This document shows, piece after piece, positions 36,664-53,000 of a DNA stretch of 64,000 nt (positions are counted from its first letter, which is position 1; every line of letters starts with the position of its first letter). A program made the position numbers and the translations under genes. The notes beneath the pieces were generated by a model. The model saw only the letters and a program-made list of their open reading frames with translations, ran no database searches and had not been told where the DNA came from. The DNA comes from Phaeotremella fagi (lineage: Eukaryota; Basidiomycota; Tremellomycetes; Tremellales; Phaeotremellaceae), in assembly GCA_001599715.1 (NCBI GenBank), contig BCHU01000002.1, forward strand, positions 1,984,001-2,048,000, read 5' to 3'.

Positions 36664-38620
36664 CTATGTCCTCTTCACTTCGCCCATCAAAAATTCGTTG
36701 ACCCTTTTCAAAGCCACACGGGGTGGATTACTATCCGGCCACAGAGCTACCAAACCGTGTAAATATCCAGCAATAACTCCCTTTGTAATTGGATCGCCAT
36801 CATCTCGTCGAGCTGTACTATCGTTTAAGAAAGGGAAAGAGCATTGTATAACAAGAAGCAAAGGGATGATATCTTTTCTGGCTGATATCAGTGCTTGTGG
36901 AGTGATCATTGGATCGGAGAGTTTCAGTGCATCTTTGGATGTTGCTGAACGAGCTAGTTGAAGATCTTCAGGTCGTCCTGGAAGGATATGGAGTTGTGTG
37001 TTGAATAACTCTTCGTCGTCTTCTGTGGTCGTTATCAGAGTTTCGAGGTAATCGACCATGCTCCGAAGACATCTCATGTATTCTCTTCCGTGTGATTTTG
37101 AATCTGGCAAAGACAGGAAGACGTTTTTCGTTGTTGCCGTAGAGGGGTACACGAAAATATATTCTGAGTCCTCGGTAGGTTTGTTAAGTGGAACCACATG
37201 AACCATTGTGAGAGTCTTGTTGGGGGCCCTCCGCGATGTATAACTTTTGACAGGTGTGATAGGTGATCCTATGTTGACACTGAGCTGTGACGAGGATGAA
37301 GGTATTCCAAACGACGATGAGTTCAACGACGATGCGAAATCCGCTGTGGTTGGCTGAAGGCCAGAACTGAGTGTAAAACTGTTGTCGGTCCCAAGACTCC
37401 TCATCCCTTCCACTATTCCATCAACGTTTCTGGCGGAAACCAGATCGTCCACTAGATCCGGCAATTCCTCTCGAGGAGTGCTCAACAGCCTCATCTTATT
37501 TGAATGGAACGCCAGTGGAGTCAAGCCCTATTCCGCGAGTTAATTACAATGTTCGCCAGGATATGAATTGACTTACCCTCCCCCACAGCTCATCATCATC
37601 TCCTGCCCCAGGGACATATTCGAATCCAACTGTCGTGGAGCCAATCCTTGTAAAGAGCGGTATCTCGTCTCCATCCCCTTCCCCCGAGGCATTAACCCAT
37701 CGCGAAGCCGACAGACATATTATGGGTGTAAATGGTAAAACCTTGTCGAAAGATGGTGGTCGTGAGGTGGAAGGATGGATGAAAAATGGTCGTAATGGTT
37801 TGGTCAGTTCAGGAAGAGGTAGTACAGACGACTGGAAGCAATGAAAGTCAGCTCAGCCACTTTCTCTCTAAAGTCAGCTCACCTCCAACGTTTCCGCCCA
37901 TCCTCTGATCTTTGATTCTATCTGTGCCTTTTCAGATGGAGATACGATTTTAGGGGGCAGATACAGTTCAACATCCCATTCAGAAGGTTCTCCGGTACCT
38001 AGTCGTTGTCGACGTATATGTATGGCAAGATTGATGACGGCACACCAGATTGGTACAGTCTTTGAGAGTCCATCAGGCATTCGCTATGAAGAGGTTAACA
38101 TTTGATCACTCTGCAGAAATGTAATACATACCTTACCCCGTCTCGTTGAATCTACTAACAAAAGACCCCCTTCTTTCTCTGCATAGCTCGCTAGAGGGAG
38201 ATTCGATCTTCTTAGATTGAAATCCCAATTCTAAAAAGTACGGTGTAAGCTTACGCCTGGGATTGAGAAATCATCAGCTCAGCTTACTGAAGTATGCCCA
38301 TCAGTCGATTTAAAGTAAGCATAGGTCTTCGAGCTCGTCTAAGGAGGCAGCCCCCCGTTCAGCTCGAGCTCACGAATCGATATCAGAACCTACCGATGGA
38401 TCACAATACCAGTTCCCACATCTTTGATTGGCTACACGAGCATAAATCAGTCATTCTAAATGTCCATCATAAAATTCCAAAACATACGAACAACCTCGAA
38501 TCTACCATCGTACCAATCAACTGCTACCTTCTTAACGAAAGCTTCATCAGATGCTATAGAATGTATTCTGTTGAAGAGATCATGTTGAGCTGAATGCTTT
38601 CGAATTGCTTTCGCGTCCAT
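36664..38620 (-). CDS. RIT1: Initiator tRNA A64 2'-O-ribosyl-phosphate transferase
   Basis: Rit1 adds a phosphoribosyl group to A64 of initiator tRNA-Met so that it is excluded from elongation. Hand-spliced exons read MDAKAIRKHSAQHDLFNRIH, then DEAFVKKVAVDWYDGRFEVV, PNQRCGNWYCDPS and TSSKTYAYFKSTDGHTSNWD. They continue with FNLRRSNLPLASYAEKEGGL, LLVDSTRRGKRMPDGLSKTV and PIWCAVINLAI. After the LYLPPKIVSPSEKAQIESKI block come WVNASGEGDGDEIPLFTRIG and FEYVPGAGDDDELWGRGLTP. These are the signature segments of the Rit1 family (N-terminal domain plus DUSP-like C-terminal part). The last exon (37524-36664) continues for 286 residues ending LMGEVKRT and is less conserved. It is divergent from the first gene of the tandem array. 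Confidence 0.9.
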
Positions 38621-39038
38621 AAATATTTGTAGATTTAGAATGAATGAAATGAGGAGGTGTTAGGAAGTTGTTCTCAATTTTCGAGATTGTTGTGCCTGAC
38701 AAAATAATCATAGTGGCATGTGGCCATTTTGGATTTCCTTAACATAAAGCATCCGGTACCAGAGGTGTCAACGTTTTGATGACCTTTGTTTGGGAACATC
38801 AGACAGGACTGAAACCAGGGTTGTATTAAGGATGAGCTCTGCCTTTGTGCAGGACTCCTTTCAAATCTCGTCACCCTTTGTCGCTCTGAATTGTATCAAG
38901 TTGGTCTTGAATATGAGGTGAGACGAATGCAAAACAATCAACAAAACCAAGCTCTGTTTTCCTTTGGTTCTTTATGTTTGCAAGAGCTGTTAGCACCCCA
39001 CGTATTTTATTCTAGATTGTATCTTCAACCACCATCAA
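38621..39038. promoter_or_regulatory. Shared upstream region between RIT1 and array gene A
   Basis: 418 bp between the RIT1 start (minus) and the first paralogue of the tandem array (plus). No recognisable element beyond an AT-rich stretch (39001-39015, GTATTTTATTC) about 30 bp before the plus-strand ATG. Confidence 0.4.
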
Positions 39039-40141
39039 ATGTCCAGTCACCATGTCGACCCCAAACTTACATCTATCGCTGAGTGTGAAACGACTCATTT
39101 TGATAGCCGAGCGACCTATTTCACTTACGATGTAGATCATCATCTAGCACCACCTCCTTCTCGCACCAACAAGTCTTCCGGTCTCCTTAGTCTTTCAACT
39201 TCAACGTCGTCTCGTTTACGTTCAGTGTGCTCAGCAGCTAGGTTCATCAAAGCCTTGGGATCCGATTCAATTGCTCCGTCTCAATCTCTTACCTCATCTT
39301 TAGGTGTTAAAACACCAAGTACAACAACATCTTCGACAACCTCTAATTCGGTCATCTCAGCCCACAAGACCACAACTTCTGTGTCTACATCTACTTTCAA
39401 TGATGAAGCGGTGGTTTCAAGCACAGGCACAGACTCCGATACGAATTCTGACACGGATTCTGAACCGGGTTCTCCAGCTTCGATCACTTCACAATCCTCT
39501 GCACGAACCTCAACCTCATCAGAAGAAAATAACAGTCCCCCAGCACCTTTGTTCACTCTAGACAGAGGAAGCAAGATATATGTCAGACCACCAGAGAAGA
39601 CAGAAGTTATTTCATTTCATGTAGAACCCAGTTCGATCAACTCCTCAAAAAGTGATATAACTCTACGCGCTTCATCTGAATATCTCAGAGAGTTTTCTAT
39701 CACAACAAATAGAGGACTAGTTGAGTTCGCATATTATAGAACTAACATTGAAGGGGAGACGCCTTCAGTTGGTTTCGTCCGAAATACTAAAGATGAACGT
39801 AAGTCGAGTTACTGATCTAGTAAGATTGCTGACGCGAAAATCGCAGCGGTCACATTTATTTTCTCGACAATTCCTTCGAAGGAGTAGTGAGTACTGTATT
39901 CACCCGTCATGCTGTGGGATGTAATACTGACTTGTGCTACAGTCACGTACCATTGATTCGGTAAGTGGTCTTTGCGATTGTCTTTATGCATTGACTAAAA
40001 CTTAACAGATGTGACGATTTGACGTTTTATTCCAAAAGGTCAAGGTTCAAGAGATTGCTTTTTAGATCGACGGACGGTGAATGGAATTCGTGGATCCATC
40101 CTCAGCACGGTTATTGGCTTGCGACAGGAGGAGCTTTTTGA
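39039..40141 (+). CDS. Tandem-array family protein A
   Basis: Exons 39039-39798, 39847-39886, 39943-39960 and 40009-40141 give exactly 317 codons (316 residues). The N-terminal half is Ser/Thr-rich and probably disordered (RATYFTYDVDHHLAPPPS, then Thr/Ser tracts and TDSDTNSDTDSEPGSP). The core begins FTLDRGSKIYVRP and continues ISFHVEPSS, YLREFSITTNRGLVEFAYYR and GETPSVGFVRNTKDE. The 40-nt micro-exon adds VTFIFSTIP, the 18-nt micro-exon HVPLI, and the last exon CDDLTFYSKRSRFKRLLFRS followed by TDGEWNSW. No signal peptide or membrane segment. Closest to gene D in both N- and C-terminal regions. Start is the first ATG, with no competing in-frame Met nearby. Function unknown; I do not recognise the family. 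Confidence 0.72.
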
Positions 40142-40586
40142 TATATACAGACTGAACGGGGCGAGGTACAGAAGTGGACTGAGATGGACTGCAAGGCTAA
40201 TCTGATGTTATCTATTTCCATCTGAATGTTTTACTGCACAACATTCGCTGTCAAGCCAATGGACCTGAACCTTGAGTGTACTATTCCACCCTCCATTCTT
40301 CCTGACTGTTTGAGGTGTGTACAAAAGGGTAGGTCGTGTAGTCCTTTATGTTCAGTATGCACCTCAATACTGAAACGATTGTGGTGAGGGACGGGGTACA
40401 TAGCAAAAGTGAGACACTTGAGTTTGAGCGTCACCCCTTATGATGCGACACAGTACTGTAACAAGGAGGCTTGGTAATTAGGGAGAGAAACTCGAATACG
40501 TTTCAGTACAGTACTTCATTGCCGGAAAGAGTCCTCAATCAAACTGATTCTTGAACCATTTGACTTTCAAAAGCCTCGTCCCTATA
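40142..40586. other. Spacer between array genes A and B
   Basis: 445 bp. GTACAGTACTTC-like string at 40505-40517 and CAGTACTGTAAC at 40451-40462. No coding sequence supported. Confidence 0.35.
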
Positions 40587-41327
40587 ATGGCAACAGAAAA
40601 TTCGCAACAGACTAATTCCACCCTTTCACAAGCTACATTATATCTCAGAGATTATGTTGTTGAACGCAAAACATCGGATATCTCTCTGTCACCAGCCACA
40701 TCGCCTCTAAATATACAAGAGAACTCAGACATTGATTCCTCAGGATACAGCTTCACCCTCGGTATGGGGCAGAGATGCAAAGCAATTCTACCTGATACGA
40801 TCACTTCCGCCGATATCTCCATCGCCAAAAGTGGCAGTAGTGTCCATCATTCGGTCATCAATCTCACTGCAAGTCATCTCAGTGAATTTAGAGTGACAAC
40901 GGTCCCAGGAGAAGTCGATATTGTGTACAACAGACGTTTCAATTGCAAGGATAGACCATCAGTAGCTCATTTGCACGGTGGAGGTAGTAGTTGTGAGTAA
41001 CAAACAGAATCAGTTATTCTAGGCAGTACTGATCGCCATGCAGTGGCTACTTGGATATTCTCCACGACGCCATCCAGCATTGGGTAAGTGTCGACTCGGT
41101 ATGATATTAAAACTACGCTGACTTTAAGCACAGAGACAAGCCGAAGATTAGGTAAGATTCAATGATCATCGTATAATTTATTCTGACATGCTTTGCAAAG
41201 TCGATTAGACACTTCTTGTTATCCGACAGGTCCGACGGATGAGAATTTGATAGCGGATGATGATCAATCAACTGCTTCGTGGGATCTCTGGTCAGAAGGC
41301 GGTTCGTCCCCTTTACCATATTTATAA
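40587..41327 (+). CDS. Tandem-array family protein B
   Basis: Exons 40587-40992, 41044-41083, 41134-41151 and 41201-41327 give 197 codons (196 residues). It starts MATENSQQTNSTLSQATLYL. The core reads YSFTLGMGQRCKAILPDTIT, SADISIAKSG and LSEFRVTTVPGEVDIVYNRR, then RPSVAHLHGGG. The 40-nt micro-exon encodes ATWIFSTTPSSI, the 18-nt micro-exon DKPKI. With the last acceptor at GCAAAG (41195-41200) the final exon reads DTSCYPTGPTDENLIADDDQ then STASWDLWSEGG, and stops at 41325-41327. DQSTASW matches DQSTAFW in gene G, which supports this splice. The open frame extends upstream to a TTG, but the first ATG is 40587. Unknown function. Confidence 0.7.
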
Positions 41328-42093
41328 TCTGTGTATGTCGATTATGTATCTATCTTTAGTCTCCAGAGTGTTTTATGGGCAGAGTGGACGACGTATACAT
41401 ATTCTGAACTATGCAGTACGCACCCAATAGATTATTTGAGTGACGCCTGCTTCTCCTCATTGCATGCAGAACAGGATACGAGAGGGTAGACTACAGTAGA
41501 CACTGTTTCAAACTACAACACGTTCTATCCCTTCAAGATCGCATCGAAGGATGCTTGTTTCACTTGTTTTGTCCTTGACTATGTTACGAGGTAACACCGG
41601 AGTGATTTGTGCCCCCTAAATTATGCTCTTTTGTATAAGTTTTTAAAACAACATATTACGCTCAGAAAGCGTATGGAAATAACTCGTTCCTTAGATATAT
41701 TCCGACATTAAACTTGAATCCTTAGATGTGTTCTGACATCATAATTGATATCCTTAGATGTCAAGCTTGATGCACCCCCTCGATCGGGTGTCGAACTCGA
41801 TGTGTTTTCAAGTAGCGCTCCGTTGTATTTGTCAAACTTGTACGTTTCTCACTCCTTTTGACAAATGGGAAGGCTAGGTAACATAAATAGCTCGTTGTAA
41901 ATGGTGAAATTGTCTTTTTTCAAAACCATCCGAAAATCCCCCCAATCACAACAGCCTCACCACTTCGCACTCACTCCTAGAATCAAAACCGCTTGAACAA
42001 TCTCCAATTTGGTAAGCACCTGGCAAGCTTCCCTTCATTAACTCAAACAAAATTGAATTTCTTTTCTGATTTACTTGCAATCCTGTTTTAGCC
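41328..42093. other. Spacer between array genes B and C, with degenerate repeats and a probable 5' UTR intron
   Basis: 766 bp. It contains three degenerate tandem units beginning CCTTAGAT (41689-41771). Immediately before gene C there is a probable 5' UTR intron: GTAAGCACCTGG at about 42012 to TTTTAG at 42091, ending two bases before the ATG. No other gene found. Confidence 0.4.
41689..41771. repeat. Degenerate short tandem repeat, about 31-32 bp unit
   Basis: Two near-full units and one partial: 41689-41719, 41720-41751 and 41752-41771. Each starts CCTTAGAT and contains TTC(C/T)GACAT then a TTGAT/TTGAAT-like end. Copy 3 is truncated, keeping CCTTAGATGT and CTTGAT. It lies about 320 bp upstream of gene C. 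Confidence 0.55.
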
Positions 42094-42984
42094 ATGTCAG
42101 ACATTGGTCAGCCACGTATCGTCGAACTCGACTCACTGCTTAGAGACTCCAGTCAAAATGTTAGTCAATCCTTGTTTATTTCTGCTAACTTCTGTAGGAT
42201 TCAAAGACACAATGGGGTACCCTTAATTATATAGATAGCGTCGATACCGCTTCAAGTTGTCCGTTTCGTGATTCACCTCCAGCATGCCAGATTATCTATC
42301 TCACCGCGCCTAAATCCTCTTCAACATTGAGTCATTGCGATCTCACCGCTCCCAATTCCTCCTCAACACCCAGTCATTGCGATGTCACCATTGATGATGG
42401 ACACCGATACACTCTTCATCTACCCGATTCTTGTTGCTCAGCCAGTATTAATCTTCGAAAAGGTCACAGTGACTGCAGCGGGGCTGTGCTACAAATCACT
42501 GGTAAGAATCTCAAGAGCTTCAAGTATACGACATCAATCAAAGGAAGCACCATTTTACAATATTTTGGTAAAGAAACTTCCGAGTGTGCCAAGCAGAGCA
42601 CCGTCAAGAACCCTGAGGATAAACGTAGGTGCAATTTATAATCAGTACAGCCTCTAATTAGCTCAGCTGTCACCTTCAATTTTTACGCGGAAGGGGAGGA
42701 TCCAAGGTGAGTACTGTATGATTTGCGGCAGCTCCTAGGAACAACAAGCTGAATCACGACATTGCTAGTGATATGTCAAGACGATGGTGGTCCAAGTAAG
42801 TTCAATTGTTTTCTATCTACTCGAGCATATGATAATTCCTTCCTGTGTTGATATTCTTCAAAGACGCGATCACACCGACTGCTCAGCGAGAGTTCAAGAA
42901 TCACAGACCTCATCTTTCCCCACTCAAGACCTACTGCTACTTGGTATAAGAAAAAGAAAAAATCTGGATTCTTCCGAACGATAG
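42094..42984 (+). CDS. Tandem-array family protein C
   Basis: Exons 42094-42159, 42198-42624, 42667-42706, 42769-42795 and 42864-42984 give 227 codons (226 residues). It begins MSDIGQPRIVELDSLL. After an extra 5' intron it reads WGTLNY, the counterpart of GTLFYFG in gene G. Two adjacent 14-residue copies follow (LTAPKSSSTLSHCD, LTAPNSSSTPSHCD). Then comes the core CDVTIDDGHRYTLHLPDSCC, SASINLRKG and LKSFKYTTSIKGSTILQYFG, then TVKNPEDK. The 40-nt micro-exon gives VTFNFYAEGEDP. The second micro-exon is 27 nt rather than 18. The last exon (RDHTDCSARVQESQ...) is unlike the others. It is Cys-rich compared with its relatives. Function unknown. Confidence 0.68.
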
Positions 42985-43899
42985 GTGGTGGTGATTCAGA
43001 GAGCTAGTTCAAGTATTTCAGTAGCCCACATTTCTGGGGATGTACTGGTCTTCCGGAGAACTTCTTTCCTTGGTATTTCGGTTGTATGAATTTAGACTCA
43101 GATTGATGATCTCATTTTATATATGTAGTGTTTCGGAGAGCAGATTGTTAATTTTCTCAACTGCCAGTGAGTCCATTACAGGAGTGTGGCACCGACACGT
43201 CACAGGTTTGTACCTGTACAGTACTCGTACAGCGTTGCACAAGAAAAATTGTCAAGACTTATGGATGTTGCCATGCGTCCTTGAAAGTAATAAGCTAGTG
43301 TTGTCTGTCCTACGAGTTATTCCAATGATGAACAGAATTCAAATGATATTGTTTCGGAAGTTCGAGTGAGAAATATGCACAGTATGCAGATCTTGACTGT
43401 CAGTCATTGTCGAGAGTGTAGTTTACTCGAACGGTCGTGCAATCTCGGTGAATCAGTAAAAATGGAGACACTAGGCAAATGAAAGCTTTCTATACCCATT
43501 TCGTTGCAACAGAGTGAATGTCATGGATATAAGACGCATTTAGCACTCCTTTCGTCTCTGTTTCACTCAATCATTGCCACGAAAAGTCGTAAAAACTGAC
43601 GAAGTCATTAGGCAAACATCAGGTCGTTACACTTCAAAGAGTACGGGAGATTGTCTCGTCGACCCTACAGATCGCAACCTCTCCTGTAGATCTGTTGAAC
43701 AGGGGTTGGTTGTCCTGAAGCTCCGTCGGTGGCTGCACATCTAAAACTCACATCTGTGACAAACTCCTTTGACAGGTTTCAAAATATTTCAGGCTGTTAC
43801 GTGTATGATGCTCTAGGGGAGAGGTGAGATAGACGAATGACCAAGACACACTGTCTCCTCATTCATCTTTCCCAAACCCAATTCCATATTCCACACAAC
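42985..43899. other. Spacer between array genes C and D
   Basis: 915 bp. A 109-codon plus-strand frame at 43040-43369 shows no similarity to the array core and no micro-exon structure, so it is not called. GTACCTGTACAGTACTCGTACA at 43204-43227 is a cluster of GTAC half-palindromes. Contains the promoter of gene D. Confidence 0.35.
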
Positions 43900-44934
43900 A
43901 TGGCTACCTATACCATACTCCCCAAATTCCCTGATGGGTTCGAGAGAACGCAGATATCATTTGCTTCCGTGGAAGATCGTCGAGTGTCACAAGGTACTCA
44001 TGCTACTTATTTCACCAACGATGTTGACTATCCCGAAGACCCAGATGACTCAAGCCGAAAATTTTCGTTTTCTCGACTCCTGTTTTCCAAGAAGGGATTC
44101 TTGGTCACTTCATCGTCCTCTTCTCCCACCCGGGCTCTTACTTCAAACCTCCACCTACCAGACGCAACTCGAGCATCCTCAGAACTCACAACGTCGTCCC
44201 CCAAATCTTCTTCTTCAACTAGATTTGATCACACATCTATCTCATCAGACTATTCATACCCAGATACAGACTCTACAGCCAGCTCCCAAGTATCACTATC
44301 CACCCACTCCTCTCCGGTCGCCTCATCCGCTTCAGTGTCATCGGAAGGGAGCTTCAATCCGAAACTATACCCACTCAATGTGGAGCGGGGAGGGATATAC
44401 GAAGAACACCGATTAGGGGAAGCGGAATTGGTCCAAATTACTGTGCACCCCAGTCAGAAAAACTTTTGGCACACGACTGTCAAGCTCACATCTACTGGCT
44501 CCCTTCGTAGATTCTCGGTCACTTTGGGTAGGGGTTGTACAGAAGTCTTATTTTACAGAACGAATTTCAAGTCAGAGGTTCCATCTTTAGCGAGGGCTCG
44601 GAATTGTGGCGATGATCGTACGTATTTCACTTTTTGTTTCTGGTCAAATAGTGACCCAAACCGTCAGCTATCACCTTCGATTTCTCAGTCTGCCCAACAC
44701 GACAGTAAGTCTCTAGACCTTCTCTGGTATGATGCTGAGTCTTCGCTGCAGTCACACCCCCTCTGTCCTGTGAGTATACGTGGCTTGACCATTTTATAAA
44801 TCAACTAACATTTGGAAAGATGTGCAGAACCATCATATTATTCCAAAAGAGCCGTACTGAAAAGGGGGCTGATAAGGACAACCGAAGGAGAATGGGTAGT
44901 TTGGGTTCCTCCAAATTCCGAACTGACCTTATAG
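43900..44934 (+). CDS. Tandem-array family protein D
   Basis: Exons 43900-44617, 44668-44704, 44752-44769 and 44820-44934 give 296 codons (295 residues). An upstream ATG at 43837 is in frame, but MATYTILPKFPDGF at 43900 aligns with the start of gene A. The N-terminus HATYFTNDVDYPEDPDDSSR matches RATYFTYDVDHH in gene A. A Ser/Thr-rich region follows. The core is YPLNVERGGIYEEHRLGEAE, VQITVHPSQKN and LRRFSVTLGRGCTEVLFYRT, then VPSLARARNCGDD. The micro-exons encode ITFDFSVCPTR and HTPSV. The last exon CAEPSYYSKRAVLKRGLIRT, then TEGEWVVW, is clearly homologous to that of gene A. No signal peptide. Function unknown. Confidence 0.71.
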
Positions 44935-45766
44935 AATATGGTAGCCTGGAGTATTCGGGTTAGAATTACTGTAGTTGAAAAGTCGTGATTATTAGTGTTT
45001 CTTAGTTTTCGTCACTTGACTCGTGAAGTCAGTAACTCTCGTATATACGGGAGTGGTTGACGTTGAATGCGTCCCAATTCTTTCCTATAGTTAACAATTC
45101 GGTGCCACAGATCCGAAAGTAATCGATGACTATGGCCTCGAGTATCGGGTGACTACAGTTCGCTAAGGAAATGGATTATACAAATCCCCCCCTTGATTGA
45201 TCTCAATGAAAAGGACATTCACCTGACGCTTGTAATTGCTGGGACGTTTGAGGCAAATAAGACGTGGACGACCTGCCCCTTATTTTTCTCCTGATTGCAA
45301 ACCACCCAAACGCTCGAGTTCCTTTGGTCGCAATGACCCCCCAGCAGCCCCTAGCTGATCCTGTAGGAGACAGCCACTGTAGTTTCTTGAATGGAGGCCA
45401 TTCCCCGTGTTTAACTTTTGTACCGAGGAAACAGAAACTGTCGTATCCCATTTCTCGGACACGTAGCATATTCCACGATTGTGATGAATGTCAACATTTT
45501 ACAGGTTGTACATGGATAACACATGTAATAGAATTTGAAAACCATACCATTCACGGGGGTCCAGGGTCTGTAACACTCCTTTTTATCGCCAAGTAAAGCA
45601 TGAAGTATTGGTCTCAGTAGGATGACATACATTAAGCCCACGATAATTTTTCCTCAGTTTCAATCCCAAAACTATAAATACCAACCCCAAAGCCGACACA
45701 AAACTGCAATACCGTCTCATATCCCCGATCAAAATCACCAAACATTCTTCCTTGAACACTTTGGTC
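44935..45766. promoter_or_regulatory. Spacer between array genes D and E, with TATA box
   Basis: 832 bp. TATAAATA at 45673-45680 lies about 90 bp upstream of the gene E ATG, a good promoter candidate. Frames at 45264-45596 (plus) and on the opposite strand lack any family resemblance. Confidence 0.45.
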
Positions 45767-46577
45767 ATGTCATCCTCAGAAGTTTCACATGATTCTTTGA
45801 AAATCGATATACCAAGCAATTGTAGTCAAGATACACTTGTTTCGACCAATCAAAGCGTATCAAGAGATTCCCCCCCCAGTTCAAATTCCGAATCCAAATC
45901 CTGCTATGGTGTTCTCAGATATCGCGGGGAGTTTACCCATCATGGGGCCGTTCCAAGCTCTATCGGTTGCGAACCAGCTGGTCAAATCAGTTTTCCAGTT
46001 TCCCTCTCCGGGAAGTCGTCCAGGTGCGACTTGACCATCGACAGAGGAAGAGTTTACTCCATGAACTTCCCAAGTGGAGTAGATACAGCTCATGTTTCAG
46101 TGCAACCAGGCAACAGCTGGACATGGAACTCAGAAATCATGATCGTTCACAACAATCCCAATCGTCTAGAAATCACCACGTCTGTCCAAGGGAACACCTA
46201 TGTTAGCTTTTGGGGTGATGAGGAGAATCAAAAGACATTCACCAGAGCTACCTTAACGAACCCAAAGCCTGAAGGTGAGTGGCAACTTAAGAATGCTGCA
46301 GCTTAACGTCAACCTCAGCAACCACGTTTGTCATTTCGACAGCAAGCTCAAAGTCTGGGTGAGTATCGCTATTTGTAATGTGAATATCGTTAACTCTATG
46401 TTATCAGCTCCAATAGATCGATGAGGTAAGCGAGCAAGTGGAATTTTGTATGTTACTCTCACTGATCCGCACTAAAGTCCTAAACAATCGTCTCACGTTG
46501 CGAAGTTATCTCGTCACCTTATCACCAAGTTCTCCCATGCGAGCCATCCATCCGTCTCTTGGGACATTGAAAAGTAG
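45767..46577 (+). CDS. Tandem-array family protein E
   Basis: Exons 45767-46274, 46319-46358, 46408-46425 and 46478-46577 give 222 codons (221 residues). Starts MSSSEVSHDSLKIDIPSNCS; the longer frame to 45752 begins with TTG. CYGVLRYRGEF is the upstream conserved strand. The core reads RCDLTIDRGRVYSMNFPSGV, DTAHVSVQPG and RLEITTSVQGNTYVSFWGDE, then ATLTNPKPE. The micro-exons encode TTFVISTASSKS and SNRSM. The last exon, using the acceptor ACTAAAG at 46471-46477, ends HPSVSWDIEK, similar to the ends of B and G. Unknown function. Confidence 0.71.
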
Positions 46578-47584
46578 TAAAGGTAGCCTTATTCCTACCG
46601 GTAGAAAAGGAATAGAATCAATTTGCTGTTCTGGTACAAATGAAGTTTAGGACTGTTTTGTACATAACGACAACATGAGGTAAATGCATTCCTAATCTAC
46701 TCGTACCCAGATACACTCTGATTGTTAAAGAGATATGAAGCTCTTTGTAAAACAGAGACCAGCATCAAAAATCATGAGTGCTGATTTATTAGCTGATGAA
46801 AAAGCTTGTGTGGCGGGTACGGGTACCAGTCAAATGTAGTCATGAAGGGTAACATTGGTACATGGTTCAAGAGACACTGGAGTTATCAGACAACATACTT
46901 ATCTAGTGAAACACTTCACAATAAAAAGGAACCTAAGCTCCATTCTGTATTGATAATCTTTGTCTGAGCTAACAACGTTTCATCCTCTTTCCCTTTCGTT
47001 GCGACCGCACCAATGCCACAAATATCGTACTTTTATACGTCTCAGTCATCCATACAAACAGTGAGATGAGGTCGTAAAAATTGAAGCCAATGTCAGGGGG
47101 ATCAATAAGTATATCCAATCCAATAAATGCGTCCATTTGATGATGATGGAGCCGATATGGTTCCCTTGTCTATGCTATTTGTAGTGTTGCGAACAAAACC
47201 TTGAGTCGTGCTTGTTATGCAACTCGTGCTACATTGGAGCAACCATCTCACATAAGATTTCCAGCAATTTCATGAGATGTCTTTCGACAGGCAACCTTAT
47301 AATAAAAGTACCAAATCAACGTTGACGTATATCTTACGTTCCTTTCATAATCCGAAACAAAATCAGTGACAAAAGATTGGAGGGATTTTGTCTGTGCCAT
47401 CGATGACCTTTGTCTCTCGATGAAACATTCAAGGGCGAAACAGCCAAATTTGATTTCCTTCTTTTAACAATGCATAAAAGGCCTACTCTATTGCTGTATG
47501 ACATTACACTCAACATCAATTTTGCAAGAGATATTACCACAAGCACTTTACAACATTCTACCCAGTTACAGTAACTCTTTCTCG
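46578..47584. promoter_or_regulatory. Spacer between array genes E and F
   Basis: 1.0 kb, the longest spacer in the array, with no supportable gene. CATAAAAG at 47473-47480 lies 105 bp before the chosen ATG of gene F and looks like its TATA element. Confidence 0.4.
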
Positions 47585-48436
47585 ATGTCATCCGTTGGTA
47601 CTGATAACAGCCTCAGAGACTCAGTCTGTGTCTTCACTACAGATGACTCTACAACGGCTCTATCCCTTCCACAATCAGACATCTCTCTCTCTACCGACTC
47701 CCCCAATCCACCAACCAACGCTCACGCAACCCTCCAATACCCCCGCGAATTCCATTGGAAAAAATACTATTCGGATGGCAAGCATGAATCTCGTCCTGTA
47801 GACAACACCGTTCCAAGCACTCTCGACATTCCCCTCTCTCAAAACACTGAACTTTCCTCGGCTTTTGATGCTTGCAACATCGACATAGAGAATGGGAGAC
47901 ATTGCATAGTTAGGCTACCCGCAGAGGCTAGAACGGCAAGGTTCACCATTAACCCAAGAACCTTCAACTCTGGTATTTCTAGGGTGAATATGTACTCTGA
48001 GGTTGGTTCTGATTATCTCAAGGATAATCTCAAAGAGTTTGAGGTCACCACATCTGCTCGTGGTACCAGTTGCTTCACATTTCCGACAAAGGATGGTGAT
48101 GCTGAGTGCGAAATTAAAAATCCAAAACAGAAGTGTGAGTGATAAACAGAGTTGCAAGCGAAAAACTGATGTCTTCAGCCGCCACGTTCGTAGTCACCAC
48201 ATGTGATGACGAAAATGGGTAGGTCACTTCTTTGTTGAACACTCAATCAAATTAAAACTGACATGCGATGTTAGAGGTAAACCATCAGTTCGGTGAGTAC
48301 ATTCAATTTATCCTCTTGAAAGTGTGACATGTTTTGCGCTGAATCCTCTACCAGACGCAAGGAGAAGTTTCATTATCTCAAAGAAATTGCCTCCCATTTC
48401 CATCAACGAGCCACTGCCACTCTAAGCGAGATTTAG
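47585..48436 (+). CDS. Tandem-array family protein F
   Basis: Exons 47585-48134, 48179-48218, 48275-48292 and 48355-48436 give 230 codons (229 residues). An in-frame ATG at 47498 lies only 18 bp after the TATA-like CATAAAAG, so 47585 (MSSVGTDNSLRDSV, like MSSSEV of gene E) is preferred. The core is CNIDIENGRHCIVRLPAEAR, TARFTINPRT and LKEFEVTTSARGTSCFTFPT, then CEIKNPKQK. The micro-exons encode ATFVVTTCDDEN and GKPSV. The last exon reads RKEKFHYLKEIASHFHQRAT and ends LSEI. No signal peptide or membrane segment. Function unknown. Confidence 0.71.
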
Positions 48437-48889
48437 AACGTCGTCTCACACTGAGATTGGACATGTATATGAGGTATGCCAGGGTTGAGAAATCGGAGTT
48501 TGTCCGGAGGTCTCCAGTTTTTGTACTGCAAGATTGCTTTTTCTAGAACAAATGTGGACCATACTGTATGTAGCGACGAGGATGCAGCCGTCGGCATACT
48601 GTAATGTCGAATGTCAGTGGTGTAACGTTTCTAGCCAATCCTTTTAACATACATTGCAAACAGTTAGAACTCCTTTAATAATTCCGAGTCACAAACTGAC
48701 ACTGTACAGTATTATACTTGAACTGATCCTCCTTTTGACTTGCAATCCTCCCTTAAGTTCCATTGTTCTCACCGTCCACGACTGGCGGACTGGTCGTACA
48801 TTATTTGGTTTTATATATCATCTCTCAATTCGTTTCCCTCCAAATTCATCGACAATCATAAACCTCAAGAGAATTCTTATTGATCTATC
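48437..48889. promoter_or_regulatory. Spacer between array genes F and G, with TATA-like element
   Basis: 453 bp. TTATATATCA at 48811-48820 lies about 75 bp before the gene G ATG. The 142-codon frame at 48654-49082 overlaps gene G in another phase and is not called. Confidence 0.4.
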
Positions 48890-49680
48890 ATGGGTTCAGA
48901 TAAAGAACGAACATCGAACACCGCTATTGAGGAATGCAACTCAGAGAAATCGAGTCAAACTCATTCAGAAACCGTCACCAACGATTCACTCCCTTGTAAA
49001 GCAGACACAGAAGGAACTCTATTCTACTTTGGTGACATCGGTGATCCTAGTACCACAGAGAACGACGAACCTGCTTCAATAATCTCACTACCTTTATCGA
49101 TGATCAGTAAACACAGTGTTGTATCTACAGAGTGTAAATTCACCATAGACACTGGAAGGAGATATGGGGCAGTACTACCAGATACAGCGATTTCAGCAAA
49201 CCTTTTAGTACGAAACAGTGCTTGCCCTGGATCCCGTTCGGAAATAAGTCTAGTCGGGAGATACCTTGAGTCATTTCGAGTGACTGTCGAAGCTGGATCT
49301 AAAGCAGATATCGAGTATAAGAGTGGTCATGACTCCATGGATACACCGCTAGTTGCTCATGTTCAGAATCCGGGCCCGGACAGTGAGTATACAACAATCA
49401 AAAGTTCACTAAAATTTACTGAAACACTATTTCCTTCTCCTTTAGAAGTTACATACACTTTCTATACCAAGTCAAGAAATGGGTGAGCTACTTTTCCATG
49501 ATGTTGCCAGCCGACGCTGATTACGAAAACTTTAGCCACAAACCTTGGATTCAGTAAGCTTATGATTTTCTGATTTTAGAATCCACGCTGATCGACTTGT
49601 GTAGTAAAAAGCACAATTTGAAGGATCTGGGTCATCGTCATGATCAATCTACGGCTTTCTGGGTGAACTTAGACGCATAG
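48890..49680 (+). CDS. Tandem-array family protein G
   Basis: Exons 48890-49382, 49446-49482, 49536-49553 and 49605-49680 give 208 codons (207 residues). Starts MGSDKERTSNTAIEECNSEK and passes through an acidic/Ser region to EGTLFYFGDIGD. The core, the cleanest of the family, is CKFTIDTGRRYGAVLPDTAI, SANLLVRNSACPGSRSEISL and LESFRVTVEAGSKADIEYKS, then PLVAHVQNPGPD. The 37-nt micro-exon encodes VTYTFYTKSRN, the 18-nt micro-exon HKPWI. The last exon ends HDQSTAFWVNLDA. Last member of the array; HCS1 follows on the same strand. Function unknown. Confidence 0.72.
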
Positions 49681-50038: not shown

Positions 50039-53000
50039 ATGGAGATACCCATCAATGATATCCAGAAACCTAGTCTCAAGGAACTAGAAGCTTTTCTGGA
50101 AAGACACAAAGCTTTACTCCAGCTCGAAAGGGACGCCGAGGAAGAACAGACCAGATTACTAAATTCGAATTGTTCACCTCGATTACTTGAACAACGAGGT
50201 TTAGCGTTGGGTGGATTGGGAGTTACGTCGATCAATGTTGGACTAGGTGGTAAAAAGTGAGTCCTCCTCATATCCCGTCCCGTCTTCCTCCCCTATGTGA
50301 TGATTGACCTTCTCAACAGCTTGATCGAGCTCTATCGACCATTGGCTTATCACACTACTTCCAATCTTCCACCCCATACCTTCAGAAATGGCGAACCTGC
50401 CAGGATAGAAGGTCACATAACTTCAAACTCGAATACTAAAGCCAAAAAAACTTCCAAGAAAGCTGAGACTGATGATGACGAGACGGCTGTCGAAGGTGTC
50501 GTTTATAGAGTGTCAAGGGATAAGGTGGTCATAGCTGTTGATGGTAATAAGGAGATCAATCTACCAGAGAGACTTCGTTTGTCAGTAAATTCAATCTTAT
50601 GAGTGAAGTATCTATTAACTAACAGTCTTATAGATTGAAACTCGCCAATTCAGTCACCTTTGATCGAATGGACCGAACTATCTCACATGTTCAGCGAATA
50701 GTCTTGCCTGACCCAACAGCTCCGTCAAGCTCACGTATATTCAACCTACCTCTGATAAATTCACTTCTTGGTATAGAAAGTCCTCAATGGCTCGATACCG
50801 TTCCACCCACTTTTACGGAAACAGAGAAAAATGAGGAGGAACAAACAACAGATATAGAATGGTTCGATCAAAATCTCAATGAAAGTCAAAAGGAAGCTAT
50901 TCGATTTTGTTTGAAAGCTGAGAACATTGCTTGTATACATGGACCGCCTGGTGTAAGTCTACATGTTGACTCATAGATCGTCACTTGACTGACGGAGACC
51001 AGACGGGCAAAACTCATACTCTCATTGAATTGGTTTTTCAACTCCTCACCAGACCTTCTCCAACATCACCTACCACACCCCCAAGAATCCTCATAACCAC
51101 ACCTTCAAATTTAGCTCTAGACAATCTACTTCTCCGCTTGCACATCTTGACCAAAACCAATGAAAAGTATGGAAAAATCTTACCGGAAGGATCGATACTT
51201 CGTCTAGGTCACCCGACAAAGGTGCACAAAGATTTGATCGGAGAGACTTTAGATTATAGAGCTACTTTCGGTGATCAGGGTGAATTGTTGAGAGATGTTG
51301 GGAAAGAGTTGGGTGATACTTTGGGAGTTCTTTCTAAGAAACGTGGAGAGAAGGGTGCGGTCAAGGGGAAGGATAGGGGTAAGAAATGGGATGATGTTAA
51401 AGCTTTACGGAAGGAGTGAGTTCTATTTCCCTCTGATATAATCATTCACTGATCTTGGATAAGATATCGACAGAGGGAATCGAAAGTGGTAACAAGTGTC
51501 GTGAATACCGCCCAAGTATGTATCGTTCGTTATCGATTCTGTACTCCCACTGATAATGTCCTAAGGTCGTTCTCGCAACATGCCACGGTGCAGGATCGAA
51601 ACAACTCAACAACCTCTTGTTTGACATAGCGATTGTTGACGAGGCTACTCAAGCTGTCGAAGCGGTCTGTTGGGTACCAATCCTGAAGTCTCGGAAATTG
51701 ATTCTGGCGGGAGATCCTCAGCAGGTCAGTGAACTGTTTGATGCTTATGAAACTGAATATTGATCGTAAACGCAGTTACCTCCTACCATCCTGAGTAAGA
51801 ACGAAAAACTACCCATGAGGACGATCGAGAAGGTAAAGTCAGGTTCTATTTCAAATTCAGATGACAATGGAACGAAGATGGGGAAACCGTCCGATAAAAG
51901 TAATGAGGAGGATGTCGAGGATGGAGCGTCCAATGGTGCAAATTTGGAGATCAACGATGCAGGTCAACCTCCGATCGCATCAGAATTGGAGGAAAATGAT
52001 GATAGTTCAGGCACTAAATCTTCGACGGCACCTGAGAATAATTCTTCTGAAGAACGGACTTCCAATGACATTGTATCAACAACTGAGGATAACCCAGTGA
52101 TTATTGACAACGACGACACCCACGAAAACAAAACCAGTTTAGAAGAACATCTCTCCCTTACGTCCCTCGACTCCAAACGATACCTCCGTCCTCCACGCAC
52201 ATTGGAGACCACACTCTTTGACAGATTAGAGAGACTCTACGGAGAAGGTATAAAGCGAGTATTGAAAGTCCAATATCGGTAAGTCTCAATGATCGTAAAA
52301 GTTGTCACACCTAACCAAAAATTCTAACATAGAATGAATGAAAAGATAGCCTCCTTCCCGTCCTCAGAACTATATTCATCCAACCTGATCTCATCTGAAT
52401 CAGTTGCCAAAAGGACTCTCCTCGATCTACCTACTATCATCGATAAAGAATCCGAAGATTCCATCGAGACGTTGGGTCCAACTGTCGTTTTTTTCGATAC
52501 CGCCGGATGTGAATTTTATGAGAAATCAGAAAACGACCCGGATGGAAATGGTAAGAACACCACGAAATCTTTAGGTGAAGGTAGTAAATCCAACGAAAAC
52601 GAGGCTGAGGTAGTGATAAAATGGGCTAGGAAATTGGTAAGTCCATCCCAAAAACATCTAATTGCGAATATTGATATAAAGAAATTTAGGTATCACTCGG
52701 AGTCCCACCTAATGAAATCGGAATCATCACACCGTATCAATCCCAAGTAACTCTAATCTCTCAATCACTAAACGAAGAATATCCGGAGATGACGATAGGT
52801 TCAGTAGACGGTTTACAAGGTCAAGAGAGGGATTCGATTACCCTCAGTTTGGTCAGATCGAATGCGAAAGGTGAAATTGGATTTTTGGGGGAATATAGGA
52901 GATTGAATGTGGCTATGACGAGAGCTAGACGACAGTTGGTATGTCTGTCTACATTTGTTTTTGGTTGAGCGAGAACTGATGGGATTAGTGTGTGGTCGGT

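Follow-up and report, generated by a model that had tools for sequence, protein, structure and literature searches.

A tandem gene array with a shared core and a common micro-exon pattern, and its relatives at a second locus

The stretch of Phaeotremella fagi DNA analysed here, 64,000 nucleotides of contig C2 (C2:1984001-2048000, referred to as the window), carries at 39039-49680 a tandem array of seven genes, A to G, all on the plus strand. Judged by their sequences, these genes descend from a common ancestor gene and form a real, unnamed family, for which no named family fits and which spans at least two loci, the other lying on contig C7. The array copies are old and under net purifying constraint.

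Shared core, gene structure and age

A profile of six of the cores recovers the seventh each time in a six-frame translation of the 64-kb window, with E values ranging from 2.4e-8 for F, the most divergent member in this leave-one-out test, to 9.7e-16 for G, whereas the best row outside the family printed in these searches has an E of 0.16. The core is shared beyond chance, and the common protein core described in the first-pass annotation is thereby upheld. The motifs assigned to it are consensus tendencies, looser than given: by eye, E, F, and G alone carry the first of them, I-D/E-x-G-R-x-Y/C-x(3)-L/F-P, in literal form, and B alone so carries L-x-x-F-x-V-T-T-x-x-G. The frame at 43483-43596, weak at E 0.16 in one leave-one-out profile, was rejected as a remnant of the array.

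In Smith–Waterman comparisons with 300 shuffles each, 15 of the 21 pairs reach z ≥ 5, while A-C (4.0), D-G (4.1), D-E (3.0), A-E (2.5), B-E (2.1), and D-F (1.5) fall below it, and some members are therefore linked only via intermediate members; these z values, like the count of invariant residues, the Pfam and PDB sequence searches, and the profile search of a protein database given below, were obtained with an earlier model of gene C that had a wrong last acceptor and the same core. The top-scoring pairs, A-D (z 30.8), B-G (23.4), and C-E (19.3), are not adjacent in the array, which is therefore not a fresh serial duplication. Apart from Met1, one Gly, and two Thr, no residue is invariant over the seven full proteins, an observation that argues against any common acid/base or metal site.

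A common intron pattern also unites A to G. The long first exon ends at a phase-1 intron, located in the linker that precedes the final strand of the core. Then come a 37- or 40-nt exon and, between two phase-2 introns, a further exon of 18 nt (27 nt in C). This pattern was scanned as gene structure alone, without protein sequence, in both orientations over 154 kb (84 kb round the array and 70 kb round the second locus) in the form of phase 1, 34-43 nt, phase 2, and a third exon of fixed size. With a third exon of 18 nt there were seven matches, A, B, D, E, F, G, and the gene H1 of the second locus, and with one of 27 nt a single match, gene C, with its donor at 42625; third exons of 15, 16, 17, 19, 20, 21, 24, or 30 nt gave none in the 154 kb, and on neither strand was there a match outside the family genes. 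Exon sizes and intron phases persist here after the synonymous-site signal has gone and much of the protein sequence has changed, and a micro-exon scan is a direct means of searching other tremellomycete genomes for the family and of testing its orphan status.

In six of the 21 array pairs the proportion of synonymous differences (pS) is 0.71-0.86 (synonymous distance, dS, 2.2 to infinite) and that of nonsynonymous differences (pN) 0.41-0.55. It is from pS being saturated or nearly so, together with the lower pN, that the age of the copies and the net purifying constraint follow. The earlier description of the family as fast-diverging, a product of repeated tandem duplication with rapid divergence, is not supported by such values or by the strongest pairs, which are non-adjacent; the pairwise comparison of nonsynonymous and synonymous change that had been proposed as a check, made on these six pairs, measured no rapid or positive selection, rapid divergence being judgeable only against orthologues, of which the collections searched yielded none.

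Residues Ser and Thr make up 24-42% of the N-terminal halves of the seven proteins and 15-28% of the C-terminal halves. The Ser/Thr-rich N-terminus attributed to all seven thus stands as an overall enrichment and fails for E, in which the N-terminal half is not richer (27 vs. 28% in the C-terminal half). An N-terminal A/G-T-L-x-Y motif has leave-one-out support in B, C, E, F, and G, with 1-9 of 1000 shuffles reaching it, and lacks such support in A, D, and H1, A and D sharing a version of their own. No signal-like or membrane stretch was found in any of the seven proteins by a hydropathy scan only (largest 19-residue mean 1.00); to this extent the claimed lack of a signal peptide or membrane helix held. 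The number and position of Cys residues vary among the copies, with at most two shared positions by eye.

The second locus on contig C7

Searches of the whole genome (22.6 Mb, 24 contigs) with the cores of A to G and with H1 and H2, the counts of which are lower bounds, gave the array, H1, H2, and one place on contig C4; the latter, with an E of 0.7 and one stop inside, was not accepted as a family member. H1, from C7:860351 onward, was first seen as a weak match to B (E 0.5, whole genome). Against the A-G profile it scores 22.2 bits with an E of 1.1e-5 in 50 kb, a match to the family core, the same score scaled to the whole genome corresponding to an E of about 0.005, weak on its own. In pairwise comparisons (500 shuffles) its z is 7.0 with B, 5.5 with G, and 5.4 with C, and there is no signal with E (0.5) or F (0.1). 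Its exons, a 628-nt first exon ending in phase 1, a 37-nt exon, and an 18-nt exon, repeat the family pattern, and H1 is the sole match outside the array in the pattern scan of 154 kb. With profile and gene structure taken together, H1 can be regarded as a weak but supported relative. On the 3' side of its micro-exon, at C7:861101-861703, there are repeats (87 nt twice, 83% identical; 37 nt and 22 nt, each in three copies) resembling an intron with a small exon, as if the 3' part of H1 had grown by duplication of an exon-intron unit.

H2 (C7:863651-864190) adjoins H1 and is 51-52% identical to it, with a dS of 0.58 and a nonsynonymous distance (dN) of 0.36 over 177 codons. Profiles that include H1 give it 12-13 bits, the core similarity being lost part way; it is not listed by the A-G profile and has no match in the pattern scan, so that neither the family core nor the exon pattern was found in it. 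We read H2 as a probable degenerate relative of H1. With H1 and H2 on C7, the array is not the whole family.

Known relatives and possible function

No accepted Pfam match was obtained for any of the seven proteins, and no described domain was matched with confidence by all of them, in agreement with the first-pass annotation, which had proposed one unrecognised tandem family with intact frames. A sequence search of PDB gave 0 matches, and Foldseek against PDB and a viral structure library gave none at E up to 0.001. In a protein database, not one of the 4838 candidates for the family profile had an E of 1 or below, and not one of the 76 for G alone an E of 10 or below; a neighbouring 842-aa frame had one weak match in Kwoniella botswanensis (24% identity), so some tremellomycete proteins were among those searched. 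In the literature, no paper describing the A-G family was found by title or abstract start.

AlphaFold models of two different members have, at moderate confidence, an all-beta core with the same strand order, which supports a single predicted all-beta core of about 95 residues. Weak structural rows include UreH/UreD, HMW1, EtpA, MinC, CAP C-terminal domains, and tailspikes, all of which we take to be beta-helical proteins; none is significant, and the CAP C-terminal domain (PDB 1k8f, 2b0r, 1k4z), compared as a fold candidate, gave weak structural rows only. A nucleoplasmin-like fold was also considered as a candidate. The TT-x-x-G-x-V stretch of A to G presumably resembles the fungal DUF7330 / bacterial DUF4097 type, DUF7330 (PF24016) being beta-rich with a T-x-x-G-x-I/V repeat look. 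The difference is that no A-G protein has a profile match to it, nor was a profile-profile alignment with it obtained; no DUF7330 row appeared at E up to 10 for any of the seven proteins, a search in which HMMER filters may drop weak rows. Kinship of A to G with DUF7330 is not supported by the Pfam scan of the seven, and profile membership was not found. The host genome has a DUF7330-like place of its own, C11:650055-650309, in a His/Pro/Gly/Lys-rich frame of 486 residues in which the same repeat look is seen by eye, with 24.9 bits against a cut-off of 27.

Upstream of the array genes, ACTCCTTT is a candidate shared promoter element, located on the plus strand between 38854 and 48676: in front of A at 38854, of C at 41851, of D at 43545 and 43763, of E at 45575, and of G at 48669. 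These six copies in the 11.7-kb array region all lie upstream of a gene (-137 to -355), vs. four copies in 142.3 kb outside it, which is suggestive of shared control of A, C, D, E, and G. The stress response element (STRE), the heat shock element (HSE), and CCAAT occur upstream at expected numbers, and TATA-like elements slightly above expectation (TATA[AT]A 3 vs. 2.0; [TC]ATAAA 5 vs. 2.2).

The reading that we prefer, while stopping somewhat short of calling it probable, is that of an old family of paralogues, possibly restricted to its lineage, which encode intracellular, predicted binding proteins without enzymatic activity and are perhaps partly co-regulated. The all-beta core would bind a partner (a protein, glycan, or lipid), the Ser/Thr-rich N-terminal arm would be disordered and regulatory, acting through phosphorylation or tethering, the common promoter element would drive as many as five genes jointly, and the result would be a set of partly specialised binders retained by purifying selection. 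Its more ambitious form, an undescribed lineage-restricted family with its own all-beta fold, an 18-nt micro-exon signature, an intracellular recognition repertoire, and joint promoter control, is quite doubtful. Several points weigh against the binding-protein reading. The binding, the partner, and the cell location are what we infer, and catalysis by a conserved Thr is conceivable. The AlphaFold models were made without exons 3-4 and have a mean pLDDT of 67-69, and the protein-database searches need shared exact 5-residue words, so that distant orthologues could be missed. Settings of the pattern scan were derived from A to G, whose own matches arise by construction, and its informative part is therefore the lack of other matches together with the match of H1, the C7 stretch itself having entered the scan since H1 had already been found there by sequence. 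As to co-regulation, ACTCCTTT was chosen after the fact from all k-mers; it has no exact copy upstream of B, F, H1, or H2, with random segments as controls, the best 8-mer reaches five of seven in 3 sets out of 200, and upstream of A to G no word of 9 or 10 letters is conspicuous.

Among the other explanations, a family for recognition or conflict, be it allorecognition, defence against parasites, or response to the environment, with paralogues diversified to bind changing targets, would account for tandem paralogues strongly divergent round a common core and for a degenerate copy, H2, beside the intact H1; nevertheless, it is unlikely, given saturated synonymous sites with pN below pS, no signal of either rapid or positive selection, and no match in Pfam to a domain known from fungal conflict systems. 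A similarly small chance is left to a very divergent branch of the DUF7330/DUF4097 beta-solenoid type, beyond profile detection, in favour of which the beta-helical proteins named above appear among the weak structural rows. The genes could also be relics drifting to decay without present function, as the degenerate look of H2 might suggest, and the G+C content at third codon positions of the array genes, 0.36-0.47, shows no strong preference and is near the window G+C of 0.42, as in weakly expressed genes; yet seven intact frames and exact splice phases after synonymous saturation would be unexpected under drift, and we consider this very improbable.

Unconventional secretion, with the proteins acting extracellularly or at the cell surface, e.g., as effectors or wall-associated lectins, is compatible with small Ser/Thr-rich all-beta proteins without a signal peptide. 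It has a parallel in the aphid bicycle genes, which likewise combine conserved exons with divergent sequence: these are described as divergent paralogues whose intron-exon structure outlives the sequence and is usable to recognise members (Stern and Han 2022, PMC9168663). In gene-structure conservation they are the nearest precedent in kind, no homology being claimed, and they differ in being, according to the same description, secreted salivary-gland effectors, whereas A to G are fungal and, by hydropathy only, none of the seven has a signal-like hydrophobic start. Nothing observed points to export, and with Cys residues so variable there is no conserved set of disulphides such as small secreted proteins typically have; we consider secretion rather improbable. 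With a structure or a partner in hand, this multigene family, so far unexplained, could be tested simply by removing genes.

Gene models and surroundings of the array

Splice signals and reading frames were the basis of the models, so that splicing is predicted from sequence. As the first-pass annotation had it, the seven plus-strand genes stay open when spliced: all seven give uninterrupted frames, of 196-316 aa. Gene A (39039..40141; 316 aa; exons 39039-39798, 39847-39886, 39943-39960, and 40009-40141; leave-one-out E 6e-14) is closest to D, and gene B (40587..41327; 196 aa; exons 40587-40992, 41044-41083, 41134-41151, and 41201-41327; E 7.3e-12) to G. Gene C (42094..43007; 226 aa; exons 42094-42159, 42198-42624, 42667-42706, 42769-42795, and 42887-43007; E 3.2e-15) requires an additional 5' intron of 38 nt, and its last acceptor, a CAG ending at 42886 that closes a 91-nt intron, was picked by similarity to the other C-termini and is the least certain junction. 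It also contains, at 42298-42381 in the Ser-rich N-terminal part, a 42-nt tandem duplication (copies 83% identical) by which 14 residues are repeated. Gene D (43900..44934; 295 aa) has exons 43900-44617, 44668-44704, 44752-44769, and 44820-44934 (E 2.7e-10); gene E (45767..46577; 221 aa) exons 45767-46274, 46319-46358, 46408-46425, and 46478-46577 (E 4.1e-12); and gene F (47585..48436; 229 aa) exons 47585-48134, 48179-48218, 48275-48292, and 48355-48436 (E 2.4e-8). Gene G (48890..49680; 207 aa; exons 48890-49382, 49446-49482, 49536-49553, and 49605-49680; E 9.7e-16) has a first intron (49383-49445) of 63 nt that is open in the frame of the gene (open reading frame 48884-49486), and an unspliced message would continue into exon 2 and stop at 49486.

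The host of the array is a yeast-like fungus, and the array lies about 266 kb from the end of contig C2 (2,299,803 bases). It is flanked on one side by a Rit1-like frame on the minus strand at 36667-37527 (Init_tRNA_PT, E 5.8e-7) and on the other by a helicase-like gene on the plus strand at 50623-51416 (AAA_11, E 1.1e-13).
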